DNA of 64,000 nt from Sphingomonas sp. JUb134 (GTDB lineage: Bacteria > Pseudomonadota > Alphaproteobacteria > Sphingomonadales > Sphingomonadaceae). Made by a program: the position numbers and the translations under genes. The DNA is taken from NCBI RefSeq assembly GCF_004341505.2, contig NZ_SLYP02000002.1, forward strand, positions 347,324-411,323, in the 5' to 3' direction. Shown here piece by piece: positions 1 to 16,971 of this stretch (position 1 is the first letter of the stretch; each line of letters opens with the position of its first letter). Below the pieces are notes generated by a model, which saw nothing but the letters and a program-made list of their open reading frames with translations, did no database searches and had not been told where the DNA came from.

Positions 1-2
1 CG

Positions 3-797: not shown

Positions 798-859
798 TCT
801 TGAAGTGGACCGGCAACCCTGAAGCGGGCTCCCGATCGAACCGAAAATGGCTTGTTGAA

Positions 860-873
860 GTGAGCTAGATCAG
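860..873. promoter_or_regulatory. Crp/Fnr-like palindrome, box 1
   Basis: GTGAGCTAGATCAG, TGA-N6-TCA symmetry with one mismatch in the outer C:G pair. It ends 75 bp before the glycine-zipper gene at 949. It is one of eight related boxes in the stress island. Confidence 0.45.
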
Positions 874-948
874 TGCCGGACGGAGGTGCTGCGCATAGCG
901 AAGCCGATGATCCCGCCTCGGTGGGTTTCTCCAAGGATGGGCCTTGAA

Positions 949-1545
949 ATGCCTGCTAGCCCGGTTCGCTGCACCACAATCCTGACATTGCTTCTGGCCT
1001 GCGGGAATCCCGCGATTGCGCAAACTTCCACCCCTTCGTCTTCAAGCCCAACCGAAGGCCGCAGCGAGCAGTACAACGTACCGCCGCCGCCTGGCTACAA
1101 GCCGCCTCCTGGCCGGTTCGTGCAGTCGGATCGCGAGCGCGAGGAGGATGATCGCTACAGCCGCGAAGCCGAACGGTGGGCGGCAGAAAATTGCATAGCG
1201 GACCGTCGGAGCAACATCGCTGCAGGCGCGGTGATCGGCGGGCTGATTGGAGCGCTTGCCGGTTCAGGGCTCGCCGGTCGCTACGATAGAGCCCCGGCCA
1301 CCGTCCTTGGCGCGGGTGCAGGCGCGGTCGCGGGCAGCGCCATCGCGAGGAACGCCAGCCCCGACTGTCCGCCCGGGTTCGTGGTCAAGGCAGCGCCCGA
1401 GCCTTTCTATCCGCCACCCGTCTATCCGCACGTCTATGTGGCGCCGCCGTGGTATGATCCCTGGGTATGGTACGGGGGCCACTGGATCTACAGGCCCTAT
1501 CCCTATCACCGATACTGGTACAAGCGCCACTGGCGACGCCGCTAA
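949..1545 (+). CDS. Exported glycine-zipper protein
   Basis: 198 aa. An N-terminal signal peptide (hydrophobic TILTLLLACG, probable cut after AIAQ) is followed by a proline-rich linker, then a glycine-zipper segment of alternating small residues (about residues 85-125, with GAVIGGLIGALAGSGLAG and GAGAGAVAGSAIA), and a C-terminus very rich in Tyr, Trp, Pro and His ending in a basic tail. Glycine-zipper 2TM proteins sit in or on the envelope. The ATG at 949 has AAGGA about 11 bp upstream; ATG 937 in the same frame is an alternative. Its stop abuts the next start (1546), so the two are probably cotranscribed. Exact function unknown. Confidence 0.7.
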   Translation: MPASPVRCTTILTLLLACGNPAIAQTSTPSSSSPTEGRSEQYNVPPPPGYKPPPGRFVQSDREREEDDRYSREAERWAAENCIADRRSNIAAGAVIGGLIGALAGSGLAGRYDRAPATVLGAGAGAVAGSAIARNASPDCPPGFVVKAAPEPFYPPPVYPHVYVAPPWYDPWVWYGGHWIYRPYPYHRYWYKRHWRRR

Positions 1546-2277
1546 GTGCCGGAGGAGCCGGAAGTCCTTGGTGTGCCCGAGCCGCTATGGCATGGGTTTG
1601 CCACTCCGGAGCATTTGGCCGAGAGCCTGGTCCGAGAGGTGTCGGGCATCATCACCGATCGTCTGGAAACGGAAGGCGCCGCCTTCGTCGCCTTTCCAGG
1701 TGGCCGGTCGCCTGTGCGCGCGTTCGAATTCCTTGCCCCGCGAGCGAGCGGGTGGCGTGGGGTCACGATCATCCCCACCGACGACCGCCTCGTGCCGCCG
1801 GGCGACCGGCTGTCCAACTATGGTCTGCTGGAGAGATGTTTCGCCGCGGGGCAAGCACAGCTCATCCCTCTCGCAAGACCACCATTCGATGATCCTGCCG
1901 CAGCGGCGGACGCAGCCGAGCTGAGGCTTTCGGACCTGGCTTGGCCGCTGGATCTGGTCTGGCTAGGGTTCGGTCTGGACGGGCATGTTGCCTCGCTCCT
2001 CCCGGGACCGGACCTTGCCGTTGCGATGCGTTATCCTGACTGGAGGCGCGTCGCCGGCATCAGGCCCGTGCCGCTTCCGGCCGAGGCGCCGGTGCCCAGA
2101 GTGACGTTGACGCTGAGCGCCATTCTCTCGGCAAAGCGACTGCTTATTTTCGGCAGCGGCCAGGACAAGCTGAAGGTCGTCGAACGGGCTCTGGAAGAGG
2201 GTGCGGAGTCGCAGATGCCGCTCGGCATCGTCTTAGCTAAAGCAAAGTGCCAGCCCGAACTATTCTGGAGCCGATAG
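1546..2277 (+). CDS. pgl: 6-phosphogluconolactonase
   Basis: 243 aa, the usual size. It hydrolyses 6-phosphogluconolactone in the oxidative pentose phosphate pathway (NADPH supply). Seen: AFVAFPGGRSPVRAFEFL matches the glycine-rich phosphate loop, IIPTDDRLVPPGDRLSNYG matches the DER-type motif and Asn of the family, and GFGLDGHVASLLPG matches the lactonase G-DGH-ASLFPG signature. The first GTG directly follows the upstream stop; GTG 1573 is an alternative start. An NADPH-producing enzyme beside peroxiredoxin and thioredoxin genes fits an oxidative-stress role (inference). Confidence 0.8.
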   Translation: MPEEPEVLGVPEPLWHGFATPEHLAESLVREVSGIITDRLETEGAAFVAFPGGRSPVRAFEFLAPRASGWRGVTIIPTDDRLVPPGDRLSNYGLLERCFAAGQAQLIPLARPPFDDPAAAADAAELRLSDLAWPLDLVWLGFGLDGHVASLLPGPDLAVAMRYPDWRRVAGIRPVPLPAEAPVPRVTLTLSAILSAKRLLIFGSGQDKLKVVERALEEGAESQMPLGIVLAKAKCQPELFWSR

Positions 2278-2419
2278 CTTCGAACTTTGTCGCTGGATCG
2301 GCTCGCTTCGCGACGTCTCTCGGGCAGGGCCGACGCAGCAAGCTCTTTGCGAAGGGGCATGGGAGCGAAGGCTGGCAAACGCGTAGAAGATGCAGGAGCG
2401 AGCCCGCTCCTTCAGAGCA

Positions 2420-2433
2420 CTGACAAAGATCAG
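2420..2433. promoter_or_regulatory. Crp/Fnr-like palindrome, box 2
   Basis: CTGACAAAGATCAG, a CTGA-N6-TCAG box in the 250-bp gap between pgl and the broken degP/clpB unit. It ends 95 bp before the degP start at 2529. Nothing else was recognised in this gap. Confidence 0.45.
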
Positions 2434-2528
2434 CGTTTCGCCGAGCCGCCACGCTTAGCTTGCCCAGGTCTTTGGTGCTCGATCGGCTCGCCGGAAGGCT
2501 GGTCGAGCTGAACGACGGGAGATCCTGG

Positions 2529-3169
2529 ATGCTGAGGCTCGTTTTCGTTCCCGCGTTGCTGCTGGCAGTCGCTTGCGATACGCGTAGTCACGCCCGACGG
2601 CACCGCTGAATGCGGACGGTTCCGGTCGCCTGGAGTCGGCCCGTGGCGCGCCCCCGAGCTTCGCCGATCTTGCCGCCCGTCTCTCCCCGGCTGTGGTGAA
2701 CAGCTCGACAACGTCGCGTGTAAAGGTGCGGAGAATGCCCGACTTTCCGGGCGGCCTTCCGTTCGGCGGCCTGTTTCCCTTTCCGGAACTGGGCCGGCCG
2801 CCCGCTCCCCTTAATGCCACGTCGCGCGGATCCGGATTCCTCATTTCGACAGATGGCTACGTCGTCGCGAACAACCACGTCGTCGCGGGTCGCGGCTCGG
2901 GCGTGCAGGTCCAAGCGATCAAGGTCACGCTGACCGGCGGGAAGGAATATCCAGCTCGCGTGGTCGGGCGTGACGAAGCCTCAGACCTTGCTGTCCTCAA
3001 AGTCGAGGCTAATAACTTGCCCTTTGTGCGCTTTGGTAACTCGCCGGGCGCGCGCACCGGCGACTGGGTCCTCGCAATCGGGAATCCCTATGGCCTTGGC
3101 GGCACGGTGACGGCCGGGATCGGCCGCCACTTGTCGACTCCGGCTGTTGAACGAGAGGAATTCGAATGA
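2529..3169 (+). pseudogene. degP: Truncated, frameshifted HtrA/DegP-type serine protease
   Basis: HtrA proteases degrade misfolded envelope proteins using a His-Asp-Ser triad. From ATG 2529 a signal peptide (MLRLVFVPALLLAVACDTRS) runs into a stop at about 2607; the protein continues in another frame (from about 2588) with NADGSGRLESARGAPPSF and LSPAVVNSS. The His (YVVANNHVV) and Asp (ASDLAVLKV) of the triad are present. The frame leaves HtrA homology just after GNPYGLGGTVTAGI and stops 15 codons later, before the GNSGGP serine motif, and both PDZ domains are missing. It is therefore doubly broken: an N-terminal frameshift and loss of the C-terminal two thirds. Its stop overlaps the clpB start by 4 bp, so it may still act as leader of the clpB transcript. 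Confidence 0.8.
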
Positions 3170-5775
3170 ACCTTGAGAAATATACGGACCGCGCAAAGGG
3201 CTTTCTTCAGGCCGCGCAGACCGTGGCGATAAGACTTAATCATCAGCGCATCACGACGGAGCATATTCTCAAAGCCCTGCTCGAGGACGAGCAGGGCATG
3301 GCAGCCGGCCTGATTCGCGCTGCCGGCGGCAATCCGGATCTGGCGGCTAGCGAAGTGGACGCTGCGCTTGCCAAGCTGCCTTCAGTCACCGGAAGCGGGG
3401 CGTCTCAGCCTCCCGGACTCGACAACGATGCCGTCCGGCTCCTCGATCAAGCCGAGCAGATCGCCCAGAAGTCCGGGGACAGCTATGTGACGGTCGAACG
3501 GCTACTGCTGGCGCTCACCCTCGCGACAGGCGCGGCGGCTGGCAAGGCTCTGGCGCGAGCGGGCGTGAAGCCCGAGGCGCTGAACGAAGCGATCAACCAG
3601 CTTCGCGGCGGGCGCGCCGCGGACACGGCAAGCGCCGAGGATCGCTACGATGCGCTGAAGAAATTCGCCCGCGACCTCACCCAGGCCGCGAGGGACGGGA
3701 AGCTCGATCCGGTGATCGGCCGGGACGAGGAGATCCGACGCACGGTTCAGATTCTGGCGCGTCGGACCAAGAACAATCCCGTGCTCATCGGCGATCCCGG
3801 CGTTGGTAAGACCGCGATCGTGGAAGGGTTGGCGCTCCGCATCGCCAATGGCGACGTTCCCGACACGCTCAAGGATCGCAAGCTGATGGCGCTCGACATG
3901 GGGGCGCTCATCGCCGGCGCGAAATATCGCGGCGAGTTCGAGGAGCGTCTCAAGGGCGTGCTCGACGAAGTGAAGGGGGCCGAGGGCAACATCATCCTCT
4001 TCATAGACGAGATGCACACGCTGATCGGCGCAGGTAAGACGGAAGGCGCGATGGATGCGGGCAACCTCTTGAAGCCCGCGCTTGCCCGCGGCGAGCTGCA
4101 CTGTATCGGCGCGACCACGCTCGACGAATACCGTAAGTATGTCGAGAAAGACGCGGCGCTCCAGCGCCGGTTCCAGCCAGTGTTCGTCGGCGAGCCGACG
4201 GTGGAGGACACGATCTCCATCCTCCGGGGTCTCAAGGAAAAGTACGAGCTGCACCACGGCGTGCGGATCACGGATGGGGCGATCGTCGCGGCGGCGACGC
4301 TCTCCAACCGCTACATCACCGACCGGTTCCTGCCCGACAAGGCGATCGACCTGATGGATGAGGCGGCAAGCCGGATCCGCATGGAGGTCGAATCCAAGCC
4401 GGAAGAGATCGAGACGCTTGACCGGCGCATCATCCAGCTGAAGATCGAGCGGGAAGCGCTCAGAAAGGAGTCGGATGCCGCATCCAGGGATCGCCTGACG
4501 CACCTCGAGCATGATCTCGCGCAGCTTGAGCAGCAGTCGGCGGAACTTACACAGCGCTGGCAGGCGGAGCGGGAGAAGATCCAGGCCGAGGCCAAGCTCA
4601 AGGAGCAGCTCGACCAGGCTCGCCTCGAGCTTGACCAGGCGCAGCGACGCGGCGACCTCGCCCGCGCTGGCGAGCTGAGCTATGGCGTCATACCGGGTTT
4701 GGAGAAGCAGCTGGCCGACGCTCAGACGGCGAGCCAGGGCGCGATGCTGCGCGAGGAGGTCACCGCCCAGGACATCGCGGCGGTCGTCTCGCGCTGGACG
4801 GGCATCCCGGTGGACAAGATGCTCGAAGGCGAGCGCGAAAAGTTGCTCCATATGGAGGAGGCGCTCGGAAAGCGGGTCATCGGCCAGCGGCAGGCGGTCA
4901 CGGCGGTCAGCCGCGCCATCCGCCGTGCCCGCGCGGGCCTGCAGGATCCGGACCGGCCGATGGGCTCGTTCCTGTTCCTCGGCCCGACCGGCGTCGGCAA
5001 GACCGAGCTCACCAAGGCGCTCGCGGGCTTCCTGTTCGACGACGACAGCGCGATGGTCCGAATCGACATGTCGGAGTTCATGGAGAAGCACTCGGTCGCG
5101 CGGCTTATCGGCGCCCCGCCGGGCTATGTCGGCTATGAGGAAGGCGGCGTGCTGACTGAGGCGGTGCGGCGGCGGCCCTATCAGGTGATCCTCTTCGACG
5201 AGGTGGAAAAGGCGCACAACGACGTCTTCAACGTGCTCCTGCAGGTGCTCGACGACGGCCGGCTGACGGACGGACAGGGCCGCACGGTCGATTTCAAGAA
5301 CACGCTGATCATCCTCACGTCCAATCTCGGTAGCCAGTACCTATCCAACCTGGCGGAAGGGGAGACGGTCGAGAGCGTCGAGCCGCAGGTGATGGAGGTG
5401 GTGCGCGCGCATTTCCGGCCGGAATTCCTCAACCGGCTCGATGAGATCATTCTGTTCCACCGCCTCGGCCAGGCCGACATGGGTCCGATCGTCGACATTC
5501 AGGTCTCGCGCGTCCAGAACCTCCTCCAGGATCGGAAGATCATCCTTGACCTCACCGAGCGCGCGCGTGCCTGGCTCGGCCGCGTGGGGTATGACCCGGT
5601 CTACGGCGCACGTCCGCTTAAGCGCGCAATACAGCGGTATCTTCAGGATCCTTTGGCGGACCTCCTCCTGCGGGGCGAGGTCCCGGATGGCTCCACTGTC
5701 ACCATTGATGAAGGGGACGGCGAACTGGCATTCACGATCCGGATGAAGGGGCCCGCCGAAGGGCAGGCTGATTGA
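3166..5775 (+). CDS. clpB: ClpB disaggregase
   Basis: 869 aa, full length for ClpB. This Hsp100 ring ATPase pulls proteins out of aggregates and hands them to DnaK-DnaJ-GrpE, all three of which are encoded downstream in this island. Domains in order: Clp N domain (about 1-145), AAA+ 1 with Walker A GDPGVGKT at 209-216 and Walker B LFIDEMHT, the coiled-coil M domain (about 400-530, rich in Glu/Lys/Arg/Gln), and AAA+ 2 with GPTGVGKT at 606-613 and [10 protein letters not shown]. The M domain marks it as ClpB rather than ClpA or ClpC. ATG 3166 has GAGAGGAA about 10 bp upstream. It is likely a second, accessory copy (inference from context). Confidence 0.95.
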
Positions 5776-5835
5776 AAGGCACTTCGCGGCGGCGATCCGC
5801 TGCCGCGAGGACCTGCAGCGAACGAGGATTTATCG

Positions 5836-6273
5836 ATGGCTGAAAAGCGAGGGGTCGTCTGCCCCCACTGCGATGCCACGAACGCGGTGCCGACCGACCG
5901 TGAGCCGCTGGTCGCCAGATGCGGTCGTTGTCATCAGAAGCTGTTCGAGGGCGTCCCTGCCGCTCTCGACGCTGCGCGAGCGCGCAAGCATATCCGCAAT
6001 TCGGATCTGCCGGTGATCGTCGATTTCTGGGCGAGCTGGTGCGGCCCGTGCCGGACGATGGCGCCGATCTTCGAACAGGCAGCGCGCTCGATCGAGCCGA
6101 AAGCGCGCTTCATCAAGGTCGATGTCGACGCAAATCCCGACATCGCATCCGAGTACGGCGTCCAGGGGATCCCCGCGTTGCTTGCCTTCAAGAATGGCAA
6201 TGTCGTCGCGCGCCAGGCTGGCGTCACTGATCTAGGCACGCTGAGAGGGTGGGCCGAGCGGTTCGGTGCTTGA
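5836..6273 (+). CDS. trxC: Thioredoxin 2 with N-terminal zinc finger
   Basis: 145 aa. Cytosolic dithiol reductase of the TrxC type. Seen: four cysteines as two CxxC pairs (C9/C12 and C29/C32) that form the small zinc ribbon of thioredoxin 2, then a thioredoxin fold with WCGPC at 68-72 and the cis-proline segment VQGIPALLAF. It lies 60 bp after clpB on the same strand and is probably in the same transcript. TrxC is an oxidative-stress thioredoxin in other proteobacteria, consistent with the peroxiredoxin and glutaredoxin nearby. Confidence 0.92.
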   Translation: MAEKRGVVCPHCDATNAVPTDREPLVARCGRCHQKLFEGVPAALDAARARKHIRNSDLPVIVDFWASWCGPCRTMAPIFEQAARSIEPKARFIKVDVDANPDIASEYGVQGIPALLAFKNGNVVARQAGVTDLGTLRGWAERFGA

Positions 6274-6320
6274 ATACCGGCATCGCAGCTTGATCGGTGC
6301 CTCGGGTGTGGCAATGTTAG

Positions 6321-6345
6321 CGGCCGGCGCATCGAATGCCGGCCG
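6321..6345. terminator. GC-rich hairpin between convergent genes
   Basis: Eight-bp perfect stem CGGCCGGC / GCCGGCCG with a 9-nt loop, 48 bp after trxC and just before the 3' end of the convergent minus-strand gene. There is no T-run, so it would be a weak or Rho-assisted terminator for either side. Confidence 0.4.
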
Positions 6346-6353
6346 ACCCCATG

Positions 6354-6791
6354 TCACGAGCCTTTCTGTCCCGAGGCGTCGCCTGGCCAACCCCGGATAG
6401 GAGCATCGTCGAATTGAAAACGCTGCTTGTTAAGGGGTGCAGCCCTTTCCCGGGGCGGCTCGTGTACCTCATACGGCAAGTCAATCCGCTCGCAATAACG
6501 CACCGCAGCATCACGACTGTCGAAGCGAAGATCGATCTGAAGCAGGGGATCTTCTCCGCCGGTCCAACCTGTTAGCCAGTCGACAAAAGGCCTTTTTCTC
6601 GGCTCAAACCTGAGCCTCCACTCATTCTTATGCGCGCGGCCGCCTCGCCCATGGTTGGAGGCGCTGGGATAAGGCTCGATGATTGCACGAGCATCATCAG
6701 GCAGCGAAGTTAGGTAGCGGCGCCACCATCGCCCATCCTGCGCGACGCGACAGATTGTGGCATGCCTATGATCGAGCTTCTGCTGTCGCAT
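6354..6791 (-). CDS. NDUFS4-like (ETC complex I accessory subunit) protein
   Basis: 145 aa from ATG 6791 (the frame is open to 6872). The middle matches the ETC_C1_NDUFS4 family: KNEWRLRFEPRKRPFVDWL, GWTGGEDPLLQIDLRFDSRD, then ERIDLPYEVHEPP, which corresponds to the family pattern of a W-x-L-x-F segment, MGWTSS-D-L-QV-L-F and GL-YEV. In alphaproteobacteria this family supplies an 18-kDa accessory subunit of NADH dehydrogenase. No other complex I gene is nearby, and the N-terminal 45 residues are basic and not typical, so a stress-specific paralogue is likely (inference). Start uncertain. Confidence 0.65.
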   Translation of the reverse strand: MRQQKLDHRHATICRVAQDGRWWRRYLTSLPDDARAIIEPYPSASNHGRGGRAHKNEWRLRFEPRKRPFVDWLTGWTGGEDPLLQIDLRFDSRDAAVRYCERIDLPYEVHEPPRERAAPLNKQRFQFDDAPIRGWPGDASGQKGS

Positions 6792-6926
6792 GTTGCGCAA
6801 GCGAATGCGACGCAGGCGGCTCCGGATATAACCGGCCGAGCATGATCGTTTTTTATAGAGACGCGAGCCCATATTGACATCTGTCCTTGCCGATGCGGAG
6901 CTTGCGGTATTTCATCGGCGATAGGA

Positions 6927-6940
6927 CTGAGCTATGTCAG
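6927..6940. promoter_or_regulatory. Crp/Fnr-like palindrome, box 3
   Basis: CTGAGCTATGTCAG. It sits between the divergent NDUFS4-like gene and the 6986 gene, ending 45 bp before ATG 6986, and could serve both. Confidence 0.5.
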
Positions 6941-6985
6941 GATGCTGCTTCTTGAATTGCGGATATTCTGTTCGTCCAGCCCTTG

Positions 6986-7636
6986 ATGGAGATCAACGTG
7001 CCAGAAAAATTCGAGCAGAACGTCCTTGAGCAGGTACGAGTGAGGGAGGTTGTCGGCACCGTGCACAACCTCGAAATGCTCGAGGAATTGGTTGTTGCGC
7101 TCGGAGCGGCAGGAGTCGACAAGGGCGACATCGACTTGATGGCGAGCCGCGAGGCGGTACTTGCGGAACTTCCCGCAATCTATGGCGACCCGATAAATCT
7201 TGCGGAAATTCCCGACCTGCCGCGGCGCGAGCTGGTTACCCGAGATGAAGGGGCGACGGTCACCGGGGTTGTTTTCGGAACGCTAATCTCGGTGGCTGCG
7301 CTTGGCGCAGCCCTGCCCGTCGTGGCATCAGGTGGCGCCTTGGCAGCGGTACTCGCCGCAACTGCGGCAGGCGGAACGATTGGAGCGGGTATCGCGAAGG
7401 TCGTGCGCAGGGCCATCCTGGGTGGCGTCGGGGCCGATACTCTTGAGAGCGATATTCGTTCCGGTGGATTAGTCGTCTTTGTTCGAGTGCGGGATGACAC
7501 CCCCGAATCCCAGATTCAGGACATCATGCGAAAATCCGGCGCGCTGAACGTGCACGTGCACGAAATCGAGCTGAAGAAGACGCTGGACGAGTTGCCGCTT
7601 GCCACAATCCAACCTGATCCATGGCTCGCCACCTGA
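6986..7636 (+). CDS. Glycine-zipper stress protein, function unknown
   Basis: 216 aa. The N-terminal part (about 15-60) reads like the general-stress 17M / DUF1269-type ferredoxin-like fold: VVGTVHNLEMLEELVVAL followed by GVDKGDIDLMAS. The centre (about 90-150) is a hydrophobic stretch of small residues with glycine-zipper spacing (ALGAALPVVASGGALAAVLA), and the C-terminal part returns to an alpha/beta segment (GGLVVFVRVRDDTPESQIQ). This arrangement suggests a membrane-inserting envelope protein. A TTG lies 3 bp upstream, but ATG 6986 is the natural start. Box 3 lies just upstream. Confidence 0.65.
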   Translation: MEINVPEKFEQNVLEQVRVREVVGTVHNLEMLEELVVALGAAGVDKGDIDLMASREAVLAELPAIYGDPINLAEIPDLPRRELVTRDEGATVTGVVFGTLISVAALGAALPVVASGGALAAVLAATAAGGTIGAGIAKVVRRAILGGVGADTLESDIRSGGLVVFVRVRDDTPESQIQDIMRKSGALNVHVHEIELKKTLDELPLATIQPDPWLAT

Positions 7637-7812
7637 TCAGCGCGGGCTTGGCGGCCCGGCACGCCGAGAAGTTAGAACAGGTCGCGATCTAACCCTGATC
7701 CCATTGCGTGGCTTCTCGGGCGTTTTGCAATAAACATTCGCGTGTCGGCCGCGGCATCATGCTCAATCGCGTGTGAGATACCGGTACACCGTAGATTCGT
7801 TGGTAGGTAAGG

Positions 7813-7861
7813 GCACCGGACAGCGTGACGGGCGGAGTAATAGTATCACGCTGCCCGGTGC
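7813..7861. terminator. Long hairpin between convergent genes
   Basis: GCACCGGACAGCGTGA at 7813-7828 pairs with TCACGCTGCCCGGTGC at 7846-7861 (15 of 16 pairs, 17-nt loop). It lies in the 278-bp gap between the 6986 gene and the convergent glutaredoxin gene and is a plausible bidirectional terminator without a T-run. Nothing else was recognised in this gap. Confidence 0.45.
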
Positions 7862-7914
7862 AACGGCTCGGCGGCCGGGGGGGCGAGTGGTCCGTCCGAG
7901 CCGTATTCCTAAAG

Positions 7915-8211
7915 CTAACGGTATCCGGCGCGGGCCAGCGCCCATTCGAGTTCGCGCATCGAGGGCTGCACGAGAACCTGTCCCCCGAGCTTGATCGTCG
8001 GACTGGCTAGCCTGCCTCCGGCCAGCCATTCGAGCTCCGACCGCACTTCCGGATGGGCTTCCCAGTCGACGAAGCGATACGGGATGCCGGCTCGATCGAG
8101 ATACCGCCGGACCATCATAGTGATGCCGCACCACGGCTTCCATAGATGACGATCGGAGCGGCAGCCGAGCCGCGTGCTCGATATGCGGACGCCATTATTC
8201 GCGTCCCCCAT
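7915..8211 (-). CDS. Glutaredoxin-like protein, monothiol type
   Basis: 98 aa from ATG 8211. The core reads as a glutaredoxin fold: KPWCGITMMVRRYLDRAGIP, then YRFVDWEAHPEVRSELEWL and GRLASPTIKLGGQVLVQPS, the last holding the cis-proline TVP-like segment (here SPT). The active site is C28-G-I-T31, a single cysteine with no second cysteine at the CxxC position, so monothiol chemistry or iron-sulfur handling is expected. The start overlaps the end of the upstream peroxiredoxin gene by 17 bp, so the pair is translationally coupled and probably functionally linked as peroxidase and reductant. The first 20 residues have no clear homology and the start is not certain. Confidence 0.7.
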   Translation of the reverse strand: MGDANNGVRISSTRLGCRSDRHLWKPWCGITMMVRRYLDRAGIPYRFVDWEAHPEVRSELEWLAGGRLASPTIKLGGQVLVQPSMRELEWALARAGYR

Positions 8212-8941
8212 TTGCTGGCGTTCCAACAATCTCGTCGAGCTTGGCGAAGAGCTCATAGATGTCGGGAACATGCTGGAGCTTCGGCGAGACGTGGGCGTAA
8301 CGGATGACGCCCTCTCCATCGATAATGTAGAGCGCGCGCTCGGAAAAGCCATCAGCGTCGCGCCATACGTTATAGCGGCGCGCGACTTCTCCCTTGGGAT
8401 TGAAATCCGCGAGGAGAGGCATCGAGAGTCCGCGGGCGGCGGCCCAGGCGCCGTGGCTGTAAAGGCTATCTACGGAAATCCCGACGATCTCCACCTCGCG
8501 CTTCTCGAACTCGCACCATTCCTGCTGATAAAGGTCCAACTGCTTGCTGCAGCCCGGGCTCCAGTCGAGCGGATAGAAGACGAGGACGATCGGCCGTCCC
8601 GCATAGGATGAGAGGGTGACTTCCCGGCCGCTAGCGTCCAGCAGGGCGAACTCTGGCGCTTTCGCTCCCACGCTGAGAGGAGAATTGATCGCATCTCCCT
8701 CCATCGCAGGCGCATGCTCGTGGAGGCTTTTCAGATCATCCAGAGTCGCGCCGGCCGGTGCCTCGAAGGCAGGGCGGGCCGAGCCGGCGGAGCGCCACAA
8801 TTCCTGAATCAGGCCGTGGAGCAGCGATAGAGCCTGCTTTTCCGGGCCGTCCGGAAGCTTGGGCGCCAGCGCCGCAAAGTCGGTGCTGAGCTGTTCCAAT
8901 CGACTTGGCTGGGGGGCCAGTGTGCCTGCGTTTCTATCCAA
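8195..8941 (-). CDS. Peroxiredoxin (AhpC/TSA family) with N-terminal extension
   Basis: 248 aa. Reduces peroxides through a peroxidatic cysteine. Seen: about 85 residues of N-terminal helical extension, then SVGAKAPEFALLDASGREVT, FYPLDWSPGCSKQ with the peroxidatic C131 in a PxxxSxxC context (Ser replaces the usual Thr, a known conservative variant), VGISVDSLYSHGAWA, and GVIRYAHVSP. The extension resembles a carboxymuconolactone-like or helical dimerisation segment but was not identified. Downstream it overlaps the glutaredoxin gene. Box 4 lies about 100 bp upstream in the divergent promoter region. Confidence 0.85.
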   Translation of the reverse strand: MDRNAGTLAPQPSRLEQLSTDFAALAPKLPDGPEKQALSLLHGLIQELWRSAGSARPAFEAPAGATLDDLKSLHEHAPAMEGDAINSPLSVGAKAPEFALLDASGREVTLSSYAGRPIVLVFYPLDWSPGCSKQLDLYQQEWCEFEKREVEIVGISVDSLYSHGAWAAARGLSMPLLADFNPKGEVARRYNVWRDADGFSERALYIIDGEGVIRYAHVSPKLQHVPDIYELFAKLDEIVGTPANGGRE

Positions 8942-9042
8942 GTTGGGACTCCTTGCTGCACGTGGTCCGCCTTCGCGAGGAATGGCGCGACGAACCTTCC
9001 TGATGTCGCCGACCCAACCTAATCGGGTTGCTTGGCGGCGGG

Positions 9043-9056
9043 CTGAGATAGATCAG
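9043..9056. promoter_or_regulatory. Crp/Fnr-like palindrome, box 4
   Basis: CTGAGATAGATCAG, between the divergent peroxiredoxin (start 8941) and lipoprotein (start 9174) genes: 101 bp from the first and 117 bp from the second. Confidence 0.5.
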
Positions 9057-9173
9057 AGCTTGGCTCGGCTCTGCGACTAACCCGAGACCGCCGCTCAAGG
9101 TGCCCCGGCCGCAGGAGGTCGGGGCACCATCGACGAAGGAGCAACGATCAAAACCGTGGAGGCTTAGGTTGAG

Positions 9174-9650
9174 ATGAAGAAAATGGGATTCAGTTTTGCT
9201 CTCCTGCCGGCAATGCTTCTTGGCATAGCCGGGTGCACCACTACGGGGTCCAGCATCGGCGTTGCGAGGAGCGGGACGACGACAGCGACGTTCGTGTGGA
9301 AATCGAGCGGTGCCCGATCGGGCATTATGACCGCAAAGCTTAGCACGGGCGTCACCTATGCAGGCCCGTTCTTCCAGATCACGAGCGAGACAACCATCGA
9401 GGAGCTTACTCCGCTATGGACCGGGTGGGGCGATCGGTGGAGGTGGCGTGGTTGGACGTATTGGGGACCAAGCCAGAGCACGCTCACCCATTACAGCGGG
9501 AGGGTGCTCGCCAACCTTACCGGCGCAGACGGGCAGATGCGGTGCCATTTCCGGCTGATGCGGTCGAGTGCAGGGATGGCTGGCGGTGGGCAGGGACGCT
9601 GCCAATTGCCGGGCGGGACGATCATCGACGCGACCTTTCCGCCGACCTGA
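9174..9650 (+). CDS. Small lipoprotein, function unknown
   Basis: 158 aa. The N-terminus is a lipoprotein signal: basic MKKMG, hydrophobic core, lipobox LGIAGC with acylated Cys21. The mature part has a threonine/serine-rich start, then a Trp-rich stretch (LWTGWGDRWRWRGWTYWGPS) and a C-terminal half with two cysteines (MRCHFRL and GRCQLPGG) that could form a disulfide. It likely resides in the outer-membrane periplasmic leaflet. No family recognised. Confidence 0.65.
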   Translation: MKKMGFSFALLPAMLLGIAGCTTTGSSIGVARSGTTTATFVWKSSGARSGIMTAKLSTGVTYAGPFFQITSETTIEELTPLWTGWGDRWRWRGWTYWGPSQSTLTHYSGRVLANLTGADGQMRCHFRLMRSSAGMAGGGQGRCQLPGGTIIDATFPPT

Positions 9651-9765
9651 CGGCTCTTGCTCAATTCGGTCGGCAAGGTTACGCCGGCCGGCGATGGGTT
9701 CGTGCGGGTGGATGTTGTGCAGCCGGCGAAGGCGGGGATAGCCATCGCCATCCCCGCCGATCGCA

Positions 9766-10428
9766 TCAGGGCAGGATCCTGATTTGATTGTCAACGCTCG
9801 TCACGCCAGGTGCGGCCCATGCCGATCTTTCGGCCTCCTGACGTTCGGCCCAGCTCCTGACCGTACCCTTGAGCGTGACCTTGCCGCCGTCGACTATGAC
9901 CTCGACGCGTTGCGCGTCGACCTGGGCGCTGCGGACGAGGGCGTCCTCGATCTTCTTCTTGACGTCGCCAGGGTTGACCCTGGGCTCTACCGTGATCAAA
10001 TTGGTGACGCCCTTTACGCCGCTGATCGACCGGACGGCGCGTTCGGCCCATTCCTTCTGAAAATTCCATTCGACATGGCCCTCGAGCGTAAGCCAGCCAT
10101 TTTTGACGACGACCTTGACCTTTTCGGCGCTGCTGGGCAGTTCGCGCTTCAGCGATTTTACCGCGTCTTCGGCAATCTCGGGATCAAGGCGCTCGGTCGA
10201 CAGCTTGACCTGGATCTCGTTGGCGACCGCCTTAACCCCCGAGACGCGTTTCGCCGCCTTCTCGGCATAATAAGAGTCCAAATAGCTCTTGGTCACGCCA
10301 CTCAGCGTCACGATCCCGTCCTTCACGGCGACGGCGATCGTCTCGTCATGCTGGATCGACGGGTCGTATTTGATCTCGTCCTCGACGTCCCTCTTGATGG
10401 TGGAATCGGTGCGAAAAAGGGAAACCAT
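9766..10428 (-). CDS. Three-BON-domain protein (OsmY-like)
   Basis: 220 aa made of three BON domains (about 10-72, 78-145, 150-218). Each has the pattern of a helix, then V-V-DG-VTL-G-V, then helix and V-N-I: VAVKDGIVTLSGVT, VVVKNGWLTLEGHVEW and VIVDGGKVTLKGTVRSW. BON domains bind phospholipid membranes, and OsmY-type proteins protect the envelope in stress. No signal peptide is evident, unlike periplasmic OsmY, so it may be cytoplasmic-face. It is divergent from dps; box 5 lies 85 bp upstream. Confidence 0.88.
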   Translation of the reverse strand: MVSLFRTDSTIKRDVEDEIKYDPSIQHDETIAVAVKDGIVTLSGVTKSYLDSYYAEKAAKRVSGVKAVANEIQVKLSTERLDPEIAEDAVKSLKRELPSSAEKVKVVVKNGWLTLEGHVEWNFQKEWAERAVRSISGVKGVTNLITVEPRVNPGDVKKKIEDALVRSAQVDAQRVEVIVDGGKVTLKGTVRSWAERQEAERSAWAAPGVTSVDNQIRILP

Positions 10429-10513
10429 GGTGGATCCTCCTAGTCATTGCGGGCCAGCAGCCCAGGTTGGCACTCCGCCGCAGCTTTCCTATTCAGCGAG
10501 TCGCCGATGCGCG

Positions 10514-10527
10514 CTGACTTAGGTCAG
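10514..10527. promoter_or_regulatory. Crp/Fnr-like palindrome, box 5
   Basis: CTGACTTAGGTCAG, 85 bp upstream of the BON gene start (10428, minus strand) in the divergent BON/dps region. Confidence 0.5.
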
Positions 10528-10586
10528 GCGAAAACCGGTGGGACCGTTCCCGGCCCGGTCGCGGTCTGCGACCGTTACATTGCCGT

Positions 10587-10600
10587 CTGATGTGGGTCAG
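10587..10600. promoter_or_regulatory. Crp/Fnr-like palindrome, box 6
   Basis: CTGATGTGGGTCAG, 120 bp upstream of the dps start at 10721. Its centre is 73 bp from that of box 5, almost exactly seven helical turns, so regulators on the two would face the same side of the DNA. Confidence 0.5.
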
Positions 10601-10720
10601 TTCATCGCCGCGGTGCCGCGCTATCCTCCGCAGTGCTTCACCAACCGCGCTTGCGGCCGAGGCGCAACCCGCGACCAGACCTCCGCCCGCCTAGCGCGGC
10701 GGATTAACAGGATGACAGGA

Positions 10721-11194
10721 ATGGCCATCGAGATCGGAATTGACGATACCAAGAGGAAAGAAATAGCCGAGGGTCTGTCGCGCCTGTTGGCCGACACCTA
10801 CACGCTATATCTGACGACCCATAATTTCCACTGGAACGTCACTGGGCGGATGTTCAACAGCCTCCATGCGATGTTCATGGTCCAGTATACTGAATTGTGG
10901 AATGCGGTTGATCCGATCGCCGAAAGAATTCGCTCGCTCGCTGAGCCAGCACCTGGTTCATATGCGCAGTTTGCGAAGCTGAGCTCGCTCGCTGACGCGC
11001 CCGAAACTCCCCCCAGAGCCGAGGCGATGATCCAGATTCTGGTCGACGGACACCAGGCGACTGCCCGATCGGCTCGCAGCCTCTTTCCTGTGGCCGATGA
11101 AGCGGGCGACCAGGCGACCGCCGATCTCGCGACGCAACGCGTGGCGGTTCACGAAAAGGCGGCCTGGATGCTCCGCGCGCTCCTCGACGAGTGA
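10721..11194 (+). CDS. dps: Dps-type DNA-protecting ferritin-like protein
   Basis: 157 aa, normal Dps length. A dodecamer that oxidises and stores iron with hydrogen peroxide and coats DNA in stress. Seen: TLYLTTHNFHWNVTGRMFNSLHAMF contains the ferroxidase His/His pair and the HWNV signature, followed by E and D ligands in QYTELWNAVDPIAERIRSL; four helices follow. ATG 10721 has AGGA (10709-10712) 8 bp upstream; ATG 10712 would add three residues and lacks a well-spaced SD. Confidence 0.92.
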   Translation: MAIEIGIDDTKRKEIAEGLSRLLADTYTLYLTTHNFHWNVTGRMFNSLHAMFMVQYTELWNAVDPIAERIRSLAEPAPGSYAQFAKLSSLADAPETPPRAEAMIQILVDGHQATARSARSLFPVADEAGDQATADLATQRVAVHEKAAWMLRALLDE

Positions 11195-11246
11195 GCTTAC
11201 CTCCACAGCCCACGCTTTCGGCGGCAATGATCGGCGGGCGCCGCGT

Positions 11247-11260
11247 CTGACCTATGTCAG
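11247..11260. promoter_or_regulatory. Crp/Fnr-like palindrome, box 7
   Basis: CTGACCTATGTCAG, 82 bp upstream of the universal stress gene at 11343. Confidence 0.5.
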
Positions 11261-11342
11261 CGTCCGCGATCCTTCCGCTGCTTACCCTTCTGCTGTTGCG
11301 GGCATTGCCTTCGGCCGACCACCCAATCGAAAGGATCGGTAG

Positions 11343-12156
11343 ATGAAAACAGGATTGCTCCACGTGGCCGAGGACAGGGGCGGAGACGCGCGGCTTGACG
11401 CGGCAGTCCAGCTTGCCCGGGCATTCGACCTTCATCTGACGGGCGCGCAGGCTGCGCCGCTGTCGGCCTACGCAATGGCCGACCCCTTCGGCGGGGTTTA
11501 CCCATCGGTGAAGCTCTTCACGGAGCATGAGAAACGACAGGATGCCACGCGCGCGGCCGTGGAGGCCAGACTGCGCGACGAGGGCGTGGCGTTCGACTGG
11601 CTCCGCGGAGTTGGTTCTCCCGCGACGGTGCTTCTCGATCAATCGCGGCTGAGCGACGTGATCATCCTCAGTCATCTCGAAAGCGACGAAGGCGGCTGGG
11701 ACGCGGAACTCGACCTCGTCGGCGATGTCCGCAGTCCATTCGCGTGCTCCGATCCTCTCGGTGCCTTATGACAACGGAACCCTTGACCTCGAGGGCGCTG
11801 CGCTCGTCGCGTGGAACGCTTCGTTCGAGGCCGCGCAGGCGCTGCGTTTCGCGGTTCCGCTCCTGAGCCGGGCGGCGCGCGTCCAGATCGTGACGATCGG
11901 GGAGGACGCTCCCGAGTTTCCCGCCGCCGGCGCTGCCGCCTATCTCTCGCATCATGGCATCCAATCGGAGTTGCTCTCGGTGCCCCGCGGTGAGCTCAGC
12001 GTGGGAGAGGAACTGCTGAACGTCATCATCGACTCGCGGTCGAGCTTCGCGGTTCTCGGCGCCTATGGGCATTCGCGCATTCGCGAACGTATCCTCGGTG
12101 GGGTCACGCGCGAGATGTTGCTGCGGTGCCCGAAGCCGCTGCTGCTGGCCCATTGA
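11343..12156 (+). pseudogene. Tandem universal stress protein (UspA), frameshifted
   Basis: Reads as one two-domain UspA protein of about 270 aa broken by a single-base shift near 11725-11735. Frame 1 (11343-11771) encodes the first Usp fold, starting MKTGLLHVAEDRGGD and ending at DLVGDV; the second fold continues one frame over with VHSRAPILSVPYDNG, ALVAWNASFEAAQALRFAV and GAYGHSRIRERILGGVT, the last being the nucleotide-binding G-x2-G-x9-G(S/T) region. Dropping one C from the run at about 11729 restores a continuous protein (DLVGDVAVHSRAP). Either a real inactivating frameshift or a sequence error. Box 7 is upstream, typical of a stress-regulated usp gene. Confidence 0.75.
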
Positions 12157-12171
12157 GGAAGGAGTTCGATC

Positions 12172-12503
12172 GATGCGCGGCATCATCGCAGCAGTGCTGT
12201 GCGTCGCTCTAGCTGGATGTGGGACGCAGAAGGCGGAGCAGCCTAGCGGCGATCACCGCGCATAGCGCCTCGATCAACAACTACCAACAGGCGGTGATCA
12301 ACCTGAACGACGCATCTAGGCGGTCTGCGCTCTTCCGCGCGATCCGAGATGCCGGTCTGGCGTGCCAGAATGTCATTCAGGCTGAGCGGCTGCCGGACGA
12401 GAAGGAAGGACCGCTTTGGCGGGCGCAGTGCGAAGACAAGTCCTATCATCTCGTCATCGTTCAAGCCGATGGCACGGCCAATGTGGTCAGCCGAACTCGG
12501 TGA
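12172..12503 (+). pseudogene. Small lipoprotein gene, frameshifted
   Basis: ATG 12172 (SD AAGGAG 9 bp upstream) starts a lipoprotein signal, MRGIIAAVLCVALAGCG with lipobox LAGC, then stops at 12264. The remaining reading is in another frame: SASINNYQQAVINLNDASRR to LACQNVIQAERLPD, LWRAQCEDKSYHLVI and VVSRTR, ending at 12503. The two parts together give a normal small lipoprotein of about 110 aa with two cysteines; the shift lies near 12245-12265. A stand-alone GTG start at 12219 for the second part is possible but would encode an odd Arg-rich N-terminus. Confidence 0.55.
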
Positions 12504-12549
12504 TCCCTTCTTATAACTCTTGTGTCGACCCAAAGCCAACGGTGACGGT

Positions 12550-13296
12550 GTGAAGCAGCTGATCGCTTTCGATCTCGACGGCACCTTGGCCGAAAGCAAA
12601 GCCCCGCTCGACGACGAGATCGCCGGGCTGCTGGCAACGCTCCTCACCTTTGCCCAGGTGGCAGTGATTTCCGGGGGTGACTGGCCCCAACTGAAGAAGC
12701 AGGTGATTGATCGCCTGCCAAGCAATGCAGAGCTGGCCATGCTCTGGATATTGCCCACTGCCGGCGCGAAGCTGTTCCGCTTCACCAAAGACTGGCAGCT
12801 GGTCTACTCGCAGGCAATCACGCCGGATGAGAAGTCGCATATCCTGGGCGCACTGGAACGGGCGATACCGGCGGCGGGCCTCAATGACGATCCTGCGTGG
12901 GGACCACGGGTCGAGGATCGCGGAACGCAGATAACCTATTCAGGCATCGGGCAGAAAGCGCCGCTGGATGCCAAGCGGGCCTGGGACCCGGATCGTCGCA
13001 AGCGGCTGCAGTTGCAAGCCATGCTAGAACAATCCTTGCCTGGCTGGTCGATTAACATCGGAGGAACCACATCGGTCGACATTACGCGGGAAGGGATCGA
13101 CAAGGGATTTGGACTGCGCAAGCTGGCAGAGGTTAGCGGCGTCGCCTTGAAGGACATGATGTTCCTCGGCGACGCAGTATTCCCTGGTGGCAACGACTAC
13201 CCTGCGGTTACGACCGGCGTCGACACAGTCGCTGTTCGCGACGTGCAGGAAACAAAGAGCATCCTGCATGCTCTCACCCTATGGTTTGGTGCATGA
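12550..13296 (+). CDS. HAD-IIB phosphatase, phosphomannomutase-like
   Basis: 248 aa from GTG 12550, where the HAD motif begins almost at once (LIAFDLDGTLAES, nucleophile Asp in DLDGT). Motif II is in AVISGGDW, and motif IV is MFLGDAVFPGGNDYPAV, which closely resembles the GDKT-PGGNDY-E loop of eukaryotic-type phosphomannomutases. The cap segment between is of the IIB type. It may interconvert mannose phosphates or dephosphorylate sugar phosphates; the mannose-6-phosphate isomerase at the island start makes the first attractive (inference). An open frame extends upstream to 12520, but the added residues are not conserved-looking. Confidence 0.75.
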   Translation: MKQLIAFDLDGTLAESKAPLDDEIAGLLATLLTFAQVAVISGGDWPQLKKQVIDRLPSNAELAMLWILPTAGAKLFRFTKDWQLVYSQAITPDEKSHILGALERAIPAAGLNDDPAWGPRVEDRGTQITYSGIGQKAPLDAKRAWDPDRRKRLQLQAMLEQSLPGWSINIGGTTSVDITREGIDKGFGLRKLAEVSGVALKDMMFLGDAVFPGGNDYPAVTTGVDTVAVRDVQETKSILHALTLWFGA

Positions 13297-13446
13297 TCTC
13301 GCTGGAACGCGCCGTGGAGCGGGATGCCGATGGGGAGTTCGGAGTCGCGCACCTTGCAAGATGCTTCCGGTAATAGGATTGGTTATCTCATTTTCGCCGA
13401 GGCGTAACGGCAGATAATGAACAACCGACATAGGGACTAAAACAGA

Positions 13447-14391
13447 ATGGCCGATCCATACCAGGCCTTGAACGTGCCGCGCGATGCTGACGACGTCACG
13501 ATCAAGAAGGCCTATCGAAAGCTCGCCAAGGAATATCATCCGGACCGCAACGCGGATAAGCCGGGAGCGGCGGAACGCTTTTCTGCGATTACAGCCGCCT
13601 ATGACCTCCTTACCGACAAGGAAAAGCGCGCGCGCTATGATCGCGGTGAAATCGATGAGAATGGCAATCCGAAGGCTCCCTATGGTTTTTCCGACTTCGA
13701 TGGTGCCGGACCCTTTGCCCGCCGTGGCGGCTTTCGTGCCGGTACCGATGGTGGCGGGACGACATTTGAATTCAGCGGGGACGAAGCCGATTTCGCGAGC
13801 ATATTTGGCGATATGTTCGGCCGCGCGGAGACCGCCGGGGGCGGTCAGCGCCGATCATATCGCTCTCGGGGAGCTGATGTCGCCTATCGCCAGAACGTCA
13901 GCTTCGAAGATGCAGCGGCGCTGCGTCCGCAACATGTCGAGCTCAGAAGGGGGAAGGCGGTCGACCTGAAGCTGCCGGCTGGCTTCGAGTCGGGGACGCA
14001 AGTGCGCCTGCGTGGCCAGGGGGAGGAAGGCCCTGGCGGACCCGGCGATGCCATCGTGATTCTCGAGATAGAGCCGCACCGCTTCTTCACGAGGGATGGA
14101 GACGATGTCCGTTTGGAGTTGCCGGTGCGCTGGGACGAAGCCGTGCTCGGCGCCAAAGTGCGGGTTCCGACCGTCGACGGGCCGGTGTTGCTGACGATCC
14201 CTAAGGGATCGAGCTCGGGGCGCACGCTGCGGATCAAGGGCAAGGGATTCCACCGGCGGGACGGTTCACGCGGCAATCAGTTGGTCCGCCTGATGGTGCA
14301 TCTGCCTTCCGGCGACGCTGAGCTTGAGGAGTTCGCCCGGACCTGGGCTCAGCGTCATGACGAAAATCCGCGTGCCTCCTTGGGAGTCTGA
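13447..14391 (+). CDS. DnaJ-family co-chaperone (CbpA type, no zinc finger)
   Basis: 314 aa. J domain at 1-68 with the HPD motif in KEYHPDRNADKP, then a Gly/Phe-rich linker (about 75-140), then two beta-sandwich client-binding domains (LKLPAGFESGTQVRLRGQGE; LTIPKGSSSGRTLRIKGKGF). The CxxCxGxG zinc repeats of class I DnaJ are absent, so this is a class II, CbpA-like protein. It stimulates the ATPase of a DnaK, most likely that encoded 92 bp downstream. Confidence 0.92.
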   Translation: MADPYQALNVPRDADDVTIKKAYRKLAKEYHPDRNADKPGAAERFSAITAAYDLLTDKEKRARYDRGEIDENGNPKAPYGFSDFDGAGPFARRGGFRAGTDGGGTTFEFSGDEADFASIFGDMFGRAETAGGGQRRSYRSRGADVAYRQNVSFEDAAALRPQHVELRRGKAVDLKLPAGFESGTQVRLRGQGEEGPGGPGDAIVILEIEPHRFFTRDGDDVRLELPVRWDEAVLGAKVRVPTVDGPVLLTIPKGSSSGRTLRIKGKGFHRRDGSRGNQLVRLMVHLPSGDAELEEFARTWAQRHDENPRASLGV

Positions 14392-14409
14392 GGCGGCCTT
14401 ACGCGACAA

Positions 14410-14423
14410 CTGATCCAGGTCAG
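14410..14423. promoter_or_regulatory. Crp/Fnr-like palindrome, box 8
   Basis: CTGATCCAGGTCAG, 59 bp before the dnaK start, in the 91-bp gap after dnaJ. It suggests dnaK-grpE have a promoter of their own within the chaperone cluster. Confidence 0.5.
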
Positions 14424-14482
14424 GACTCACGAGCGCGAGACCCTTCATCGTCGTTGTTCGATTTTCTAATTCGGAGGCTAGC

Positions 14483-16357: not shown

Positions 16358-16431
16358 TCCGGTCCGTTCCGCTGATCACAATTTGGTGAAGTGGCGCCGC
16401 CGCTTGCACGGATGAATGAAGGCTCGGTCAA

Positions 16432-16971
16432 ATGAACCAGGACGACATCGCTGAAGGAGGACAGTCTCCGGCGCCGCAGGAGCAGGAGGTGGAGAAGCCC
16501 GAGTCCAAGCAGGCGGCCGCATCGGAAGCCGACGAGCTGCGGGAGCGGCTCCTGCGTGCCCTGGCCGATGCCGAGAATGCCAGGAAGCGAGCCGATCGCG
16601 CGCGTGCCGAGGGGCGCGAGAGCGGGATTGCAGACCTGGTCTCGAAAATCGTTCCCGCTCTCGATAGCCTCGATCTCGCCATCGAGGCGGCCGGCCGAAC
16701 CGAGGAAGGAACCCAGCCGAGTGTCGATGCCCTGCTAAACGGGCTGCGGGCGACCAGTCGCGCGTTTCTCGATGCGCTGATCAAGGTGGGCGTCGAGCGA
16801 ATATGCCCCGGCACGGGCGAGGCGTTCGACCCGAACATCCATGATGCGATCGCATCGCGATCTGATGACGAGACAGGTGACGGGCTGGTCCTGGAGACCC
16901 TCCAGCCCGGATACAGGGTTGCAAGCCGACTTGTGCGGCCCGCGCGCGTCGTGATTGCAAGGGCGAGCTGA
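16432..16971 (+). CDS. grpE: Nucleotide exchange factor GrpE
   Basis: 179 aa. Releases ADP from DnaK. An acidic, Gln/Glu-rich N-terminus, long helix (ADELRERLLRALADAENARK, about 35-75), then the beta-wing region with GVERICPGTGEAFDPNIHDA and a C-terminal LQPGYRVASRLVRPARVVIA, the typical GrpE ending. It lies 74 bp downstream of dnaK on the same strand. Confidence 0.92.
   Translation: MNQDDIAEGGQSPAPQEQEVEKPESKQAAASEADELRERLLRALADAENARKRADRARAEGRESGIADLVSKIVPALDSLDLAIEAAGRTEEGTQPSVDALLNGLRATSRAFLDALIKVGVERICPGTGEAFDPNIHDAIASRSDDETGDGLVLETLQPGYRVASRLVRPARVVIARAS

Follow-up and report, generated by a model that had tools for sequence, protein, structure and literature searches.

A conserved CTGA-N6-TCAG box and a FixK/FNR-like regulator in the stress island of Sphingomonas sp. 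JUb134

The stress island and its palindromes

The stretch of Sphingomonas sp. JUb134 DNA analysed here comprises 64,000 nucleotides (the window, to which plain numbers refer) and forms the last 64 kb of the 411-kb contig C2 of a 4.1-Mb genome (G000); positions on its contigs carry the prefixes C1, C2 and so on. The window holds a stress island in which a 14-bp palindrome, CTGA-N6-TCAG, recurs, and about 7.9 kb before the window start lies the gene of a Crp/Fnr-type protein, here termed regulator B (C2:338699-339445). We consider it highly probable that B uses this box, an altered FNR box, to activate from a class II position a stress regulon that spans the island and is insulated from the FNR of the host, where we infer binding, activation and insulation from sequence. 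Contig C2 is probably a megaplasmid, since F-type conjugation-like genes are found at about 24-43 kb of the window (open reading frames, ORFs, read by eye).

A pattern search of the window located exact copies of the box at 2420, 6927, 9043, 10514, 10587, 11247 and 14410, while the site at 860, GTGAGCTAGATCAG, is a single-base variant with G at the first position. All eight positions had been given correctly, as seven exact sites and one variant, by an earlier reading made without database searches (the sequence-only reading); its series was taken to begin at 860, and in this respect has to be extended, as three further boxes precede the window (C2:336720, 337836 and 345158). Box 1 (860..873, GTGAGCTAGATCAG) lies before a gene for a glycine-zipper 2TM protein (886..1545, plus strand; Pfam PF05433 just below cut-off), whose annotated start in relatives is further in, and a TA step follows at 896-897. 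Box 2 (2420..2433, CTGACAAAGATCAG; TA at 2456-2457) precedes a group consisting of a short DegP-like ORF (2693..3169), clpB (3166..5775) and trxC (5836..6273), all on the plus strand and named from the ORFs and the annotation of relatives; it is identical in the related islands L036, L037 and L038. These three encode a full-length Do endopeptidase, and the short form of degP is also found in the related islands L041 and L115. Box 3 (6927..6940, CTGAGCTATGTCAG; TA 24 nt away) stands before a hypothetical gene starting near 6983-6989 (ORF 6983..7636, plus strand; no Pfam match), and its counterpart in relatives has a different centre and flanks that did not align. Box 4 (9043..9056, CTGAGATAGATCAG), identical in three relatives and with TA at 22 nt on both sides, is placed between divergent genes for an AhpC/TSA-type redoxin, a peroxiredoxin (8195..8941, minus strand; PF00578), and a lipoprotein-like protein (9174..9650, plus strand; no Pfam match). 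Box 5 (10514..10527, CTGACTTAGGTCAG; TA 23 nt away) faces the gene of a BON-domain protein with three matched stretches (9766..10428, minus strand; PF04972), and Box 6 (10587..10600, CTGATGTGGGTCAG; TA 22 nt away) faces dps, encoding a Dps/ferritin-like protein (10724..11194, plus strand; PF00210). This divergent BON/dps region carries two boxes in two genera, with starts 73 bp apart in the window (10514-10600) and 66 bp apart in genome G441 (C1:2788460-2788539). Box 7 (11247..11260, CTGACCTATGTCAG; TA 23 nt away; identical in three relatives) precedes usp, the gene of a universal stress protein (11343..12156, plus strand), the frame of which is interrupted in this assembly and intact in L041. 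The frame of hsp20 upstream of the window (C2:338044-338586) is interrupted similarly, be it by a real mutation or by an assembly error, and hsp20 is annotated as intact in L041 and L115. Finally, Box 8 (14410..14423, CTGATCCAGGTCAG; no TA at 22/23 nt; identical in three relatives) lies between a gene for a DnaJ-type protein (13447..14391) and the pair dnaK (14483..16357) and grpE (16432..16971), which it precedes; the three genes are on the plus strand and were named, as above, from ORFs and the annotation of relatives.

In the window, nine exact matches were observed against 0.75 expected, a number that was reached in none of 100 shuffles; the two matches not listed above, at 24153 and 56650, are inside or at the end of coding ORFs. 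When up to one mismatch was allowed, 34 matches faced 23.2 expected, a slight excess that was reached in 2 of 100 shuffles, and the signal therefore sits in the exact form. Genome-wide there are 60 exact sites, ten of which fall within the 25 kb from C2:336720 to C2:361733 (Poisson P about 8e-12). The form with a pyrimidine-purine centre (YR form, CTGANNYRNNTCAG) is present 20 times in the genome, nine times within the same 25 kb, and the same pattern read backwards occurs twice. The roughly 50 copies of the box elsewhere in the genome form a background that lies in coding sequence at the places examined: among five of seven YR-type matches on C1, one (C1:51041) is inside a lepA-like ORF and three (L003, L005 and L013) overlap long ORFs, while no ORF was found near the fifth (L009), and a non-YR site at C1:1945110 overlaps the end of an ORF. 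Chromosomal members of the regulon are accordingly not claimed. Some 217 kb away from the start of the window, at C2:130283 (L031, position 8284), a box of the same type precedes a second YfdX gene and is likely to mark a distant member of the regulon.

Conservation and promoter placement of the box

Plasmid records were searched by megablast with positions 1-16500 of the window as query. There were 39 matching records. Coverage of the query at a single place reached at least 80% in six of them, with about 99.2% identity in three (plasmids of S. koreensis, Sphingobium sp. WTD-1 and S. paucimobilis FDAARGOS_881) and 88-90% identity in the other three (Sphingobium cloacae, S. paucimobilis FDAARGOS_908 and S. 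sanxanigenens). By annotation, the island comprises genes for cardiolipin synthase, an ATP-binding (HATPase) protein, Hsp20, one or two Crp/Fnr regulators, DUF5335 and YfdX, together with DegP, ClpB, TrxC, in some cases a second Hsp20, the redoxin, BON, Dps, Usp, the DnaJ-type protein, DnaK and GrpE. In four related islands (stretches of 40-44 kb), all 45 copies of the box are intergenic, 11 of 11 in L036, 12 of 12 in L037, 12 of 12 in L038 and 10 of 10 in L041, where 'intergenic' stands for the absence of a listed gene because the PLSDB gene table used is incomplete; intergenic DNA makes up only 14.1%, 13.6%, 15.6% and 21.0% of these stretches, respectively. Among all 256 palindromes composed of four bases and an N6 spacer, the next best has at most four intergenic copies in the same islands. 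As L041 is nearly identical to the JUb134 island and L036, L037 and L038 are close to each other, these four represent about two groups rather than independent cases. Upon alignment to the L037 sites, 246 of 248 half-site cells were identical, compared to 2187 of 2457 flank cells; the L037 sites had been picked as exact matches, so that this test covers the other islands only, and at five of the 12 sites, where the JUb134 island fell below the alignment score threshold, it counts L036 and L038 only. The sole change within a half-site concerns the first base of the glycine-zipper box, which is C in L037 and L038, A in L036 and G in the window. By these comparisons, the CTGA-N6-TCAG box is a real regulatory element. 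For the sequence-only reading, a site as frequent in coding sequence or unrelated promoters, or one not conserved upstream of orthologous genes, would have counted against the regulon; neither objection refuted it, as the boxes of the islands are intergenic and conserved, even though the pattern has its background of about 50 copies elsewhere in the genome. Its proposal of a multi-gene stress regulon under a single box gains support from the same intergenic and conserved copies. A further conserved box (L036 11308, L037 11314, L038 11310) sits between convergently transcribed genes and is faced by no annotated gene; perhaps a small gene or RNA has escaped annotation there.

The distance between boxes and start codons, previously put at 45-120 bp, turned out to be wider: according to the annotated starts of the four relatives, the box centre is about 30-390 bp away where a gene faces the box, with an outlier of 854 bp in L041, from the gene table of which the redoxin gene is missing. 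Promoter geometry was examined in both flanks of 21 sites, 11 from the JUb134 island (including the variant at 860), six from G441, three from the Novosphingobium metagenome-assembled genome L082, and the site C2:130283; for G441, six of the seven clustered boxes were used, the seventh being outside the fetched stretch. A TA step begins 22 or 23 nt past the box in 17 of the 42 oriented flanks, while the best adjacent pair of positions in 5000 random rotations reached 10, and 15 of the 21 sites have such a TA on at least one side. If its T is taken as -12, the box is centred on -40.5 or -41.5, which corresponds to the class II position; at promoters of class II CRP/FNR activators, the site is centred near -41.5. 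The geometry thus fits a class II FNR/CRP-dependent promoter, with the putative -10 element assigned by sequence alone. Some CRP/FNR proteins repress, and it might be argued, given the variable distances to the annotated starts, that B binds the boxes chiefly as a repressor, or to block a default promoter, an effect relieved by stress. We regard such a role as unlikely, as the position of the TA peak would place B at the site of a class II activator and not over the -10 element or the transcription start.

Regulator B and its putative target specificity

In a search of the genome with the HTH_Crp_2 helix-turn-helix (HTH) profile, 13 matches were obtained, five of them over cut-off, and one of these, in the island, is regulator B. 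Its C-terminus carries a Crp-type HTH (PF13545, 4.4e-15; PF00325, 3.9e-9; both over cut-off), and for a cyclic-nucleotide-binding-like beta-roll in its N-terminal part, the match to PF00027 is below cut-off (E 1.7e-4), with an alignment to FixK2 across the domain. FixK2 is also its best match among solved structures (4i2o, 9e-21); with the NCBIfam FixK equivalog, B scored 103 bits, below the cut-off of 300. The recognition helix is MSRADIGDHLGLTSETVTRTF in B and MSRRDIGDYLGLTLETVSRAL in FixK2, that is, GLTSETVTR instead of the usual GLTxETVSR, and both the helix SETVTR and the box CTGA-N6-TCAG depart from the FixK/FNR pattern (E-T-V/I-S-R and TTGA-N6-TCAA). In FNR, the residues used for recognition are E209, S212 and R213. 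Passages on Sphingopyxis granuli (PMC7713065) describe the Glu, Ser and Arg conserved in this helix as important for Fnr-box recognition, and Rodionov and colleagues (PMC1274295) reported that positions 180 and 181 in CRP numbering are correlated with half-site bases 3 and 6. B has Ser at position 180, and the base that differs in the box is base 3. Hence, a Crp/Fnr gene with a plausibly fitting recognition helix, which the sequence-only reading had called for, resides in the island itself, and the idea of a Crp/Fnr-type box with its outer T:A pair changed to C:G is backed by conservation, geometry and helix alike.

The signal is another matter. No N-terminal cysteine cluster of the FNR type was found in the B sequences by eye, while one is present in the chromosomal protein L016; direct oxygen sensing by an Fe-S cluster as in FNR is therefore unlikely for B, and the earlier suggestion of oxygen or redox state as the input of the regulon found no support. 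A cysteine conserved in all four B lineages (motif ALC) was considered as a redox sensor and rejected as not specific, since six of 24 other aligned loci (L084, L085, L086, L088, L089 and L114) share it at the same position. In two loci an ATPase, KaiC-like by eye in L082, adjoins a histidine kinase (L082 3859-7009; L039 35380-38941), a possible signal input.

Whether helix type and box type go together was followed in loci around relatives of B, taken from 29 matches in GTDB genomes, from plasmids and from two genome samples. The sample of the order yielded 8 of 396 genomes at E of at most 1e-20, with only JUb134 above 39% identity, and the sample of the family 4 of 397 genomes at E of at most 1e-25. 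Clustering at 80% identity, with L107, L108 and L039 dropped for low alignment scores, gave 24 lineages; outside this table remained L115 and seven short order-level loci (L043-L049), in five of which the helix was seen, each time as ETVSR. At least three CTGA boxes were present in 4 of 4 SETVTR lineages and in 1 of the 20 others, all of which have Ser before the Arg (Fisher 0.0005, a value that exaggerates independence, the four SETVTR lineages having a common ancestor). The exception, L114, has three CTGA sites but a contig free of the YR-centred form, and the 25 loci without SETVTR contain 9 CTGA and 39 TTGA palindromes in total. The regulators of the other three SETVTR lineages are 53%, 56% and 65% identical to B of S. 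paucimobilis. In G441, which belongs to another genus and has its island on a 3.4-Mb contig, B is 53% identical and 7 of the 23 YR-type boxes of the genome lie within 22 kb, among them one just upstream of B and, as in the window, a double box between BON and dps (genes assigned by eye). In L082, with 56% identity, there are three boxes, one before a YfdX-type gene, one between B and its neighbour and one before usp, the genes again being assigned by eye. Genome G420, in which 16 of 33 YR-type matches are on C2 and 17 on the chromosome, does not add a lineage, as its B coordinates match those of the S. sanxanigenens plasmid.

Based on these findings, we propose that a dimer of the FixK/FNR-like protein B binds the palindromes, which would serve as operators of one island-wide stress regulon. 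B would read CTGA-N6-TCAG rather than TTGA-N6-TCAA because its helix (GLT-S-E-T-V-T-R) carries Ser and Thr at two positions where FixK and FNR proteins mostly have Ile, Leu, Val or Thr, and Ser, respectively, while the Glu and Arg used by FNR-type proteins for the TGA core are retained. Bound at about -41, it would most likely activate sigma-70 promoters as a class II activator and switch on the genes for chaperones, Dps, Usp, BON and redoxin as well as its own gene, and the altered box would keep the circuit of the mobile island apart from the FNR circuit of the host. In its widest form, which we hold to be rather more probable than its opposite, the proposal describes a private, orthogonal FNR-type circuit in a family of mobile islands, in which the changes of residue 180 to Ser and 184 to Thr and the symmetric T-to-C change in all operators moved together, leaving a ten-promoter chaperone and oxidative-stress programme that would work in whichever sphingomonad is the host and would not cross-talk with its FNR/FixK, which keeps the TTGA boxes. 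If correct, it would be a natural case of a regulator and some ten operators shifting specificity jointly on a mobile element. It would allow the CRP/FNR recognition code to be tested cleanly, with C at the outer position as a new entry, would assign a named regulator and a list of targets to horizontally moving stress tolerance in sphingomonads, and would provide an FNR-like component, expected to be orthogonal to the FNR of the host.

Several observations weigh against this proposal. A second Crp/Fnr protein, regulator A (WP_007406257; helix GLSETHVSR, N-terminal CxxC), is encoded beside B in L036, L037 (6678-7412), L038 and L041. The dnaK box and, overall, 6 of the 21 sites lack a TA at 22/23 nt. 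Ser180 alone as the specificity switch is ruled out by HcpR1 proteins, which have Ser or Pro at this position yet a TTGAC motif according to PMC1274295; since Ser180 alone cannot explain the C, the second change, Thr in place of Ser directly ahead of the Arg (184), probably contributes. An IS21-type istA/istB pair and a second transposase (C2:339615-344667) are located between B and the upstream box in JUb134; these insertion elements do not separate the two in L115, a plasmid that shares the JUb134 variant of B, which has 65% identity to the other plasmid B. The stretches searched for boxes vary from 4 to 44 kb, and since the four SETVTR lineages share ancestry, helix and box may have changed together only once, so that the lineage test is no independent replication. 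Among the 396 genomes of the order, high numbers of YR-type matches also occur in genomes with no match to B (G210, 33; G046, 33; G213, 31; G275, 23; G313, 23), with the places in G210 scattered among the matches listed and the assembly of G213 split into 190 contigs, which limits what it can say on clustering; for this reason, the genome-wide box count was rejected as a marker. Finally, the TTGA count of JUb134 given below is in part background.

An alternative with a small probability is that the boxes are ordinary targets of a chromosomal FNR/FixK protein of the host that tolerates an outer C:G pair. Occasional outer variants do appear in parts of the published lists, such as CTGATCTAAATCAA for FixK2 (PMC9104804) and ATGACgcagATCAA for FnrL (PMC2908626), but these are altered on one side only. 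The genome of JUb134 has 15 copies of TTGA-N6-TCAA, part of which are background in view of nine copies of the reversed control pattern. Six of these 15 boxes are near chromosomal Crp/Fnr genes: one cluster of three (C1:2405005-2405464) is no more than 1.2 kb from the HTH match at C1:2404243, and another three (cluster C1:2583024-2584449) are no more than about 0.9 kb from the match at C1:2583548, which has the helix IETVSR. The CTGA clusters follow B. Only one copy is in the island, at the start of ORF 6983, and L036-L038 have none and L041 one, as opposed to 45 symmetric CTGA boxes. Two FNR-type box systems thus appear to coexist in one cell. Slightly less probable still is binding of the boxes by regulator A, the neighbour of B in the four islands named above. 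FNR/FixK proteins use Glu 181 for the TGA core, and A lacks this residue in an alignment made by eye; moreover, the boxes are kept in the JUb134 island, L115, L082 (a 16-kb contig) and the printed part of the G441 stretch, where A was not seen beside B when ORF lists and gene tables were inspected by eye. Chance or compositional palindromes in GC-rich promoters, for which the background copies elsewhere in the genome might speak, have practically no probability left after the shuffle, clustering, intergenic and conservation tests.

Relation to known regulons and stress islands

The proposed role of B as an activator of stress genes has a close counterpart in the FixK2 regulon of Bradyrhizobium diazoefficiens, which likewise relies on a 14-bp palindrome (TTGA/C-N6-T/GCAA) and a regulator of the same family, but with an outer T and the helix LETVSR instead of the outer C and SETVTR found here. 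According to passages of PMC9104804, its targets include genes for Hsp20, GroEL5, DnaJ and Usp under TTGA-N6-TCAA-type boxes, similar to the gene set of the island, and a link of low oxygen to protein quality control is accordingly not new, contrary to what the sequence-only reading had assumed. In the same vein, uspA is listed in the predicted core FNR regulon of alphaproteobacteria in part of PMC2908626. Among sphingomonads, FnrN/FixK of Sphingopyxis granuli TFA act on an Fnr-type box, TTGAc/t-N4-g/aTCAA, and anaerobically induced stress genes are reported in the passages concerned not to be Fnr-regulated (PMC7713065); these proteins keep the Ser that is Thr in B, which in addition lacks the FNR N-terminal cysteine cluster.

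A plasmid of Phenylobacterium zucineum HLK1 similarly has stress genes beside a Crp/Fnr gene. Within a 42.5-kb stretch, 4 of 4 TTGA-N6-TCAA boxes are intergenic; the interval between usp and yfdX holds two, dnaK is preceded by one, and the fourth stands before a small ORF upstream of glk. The box is the standard one and the helix reads GLTPETTSR, and as the regulator is distant from B, no orthology is claimed. Another mobile set is the transmissible locus of stress tolerance (tLST), which also includes YfdX, PsiE and KefB-type genes and is marked by a ClpG-type disaggregase and a MerR-like first gene; the disaggregase of the island is annotated as ClpB. Passages of PMC8290217 describe it as a protein-quality-control set with a small Hsp, a disaggregase, DegP and Trx, with expression attributed to a promoter ahead of a Mer-like gene as well as to several predicted promoters, and its main text does not mention Fnr. 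In Burkholderia cenocepacia, a member of another bacterial class, the low-oxygen-activated (lxa) locus combines Usp, BON and heat-shock genes under a suggested FixK/Crp-type regulator, with no box described in the passages concerned (PMC6127331). The box of the island, in any of six spellings, was not found in the literature searched, which left most subscription journals outside its coverage. Taken together, chaperone and Usp genes under FixK2-type control have been described before, and the novelty lies in a mobile island that pairs an altered box with a helix altered to match.

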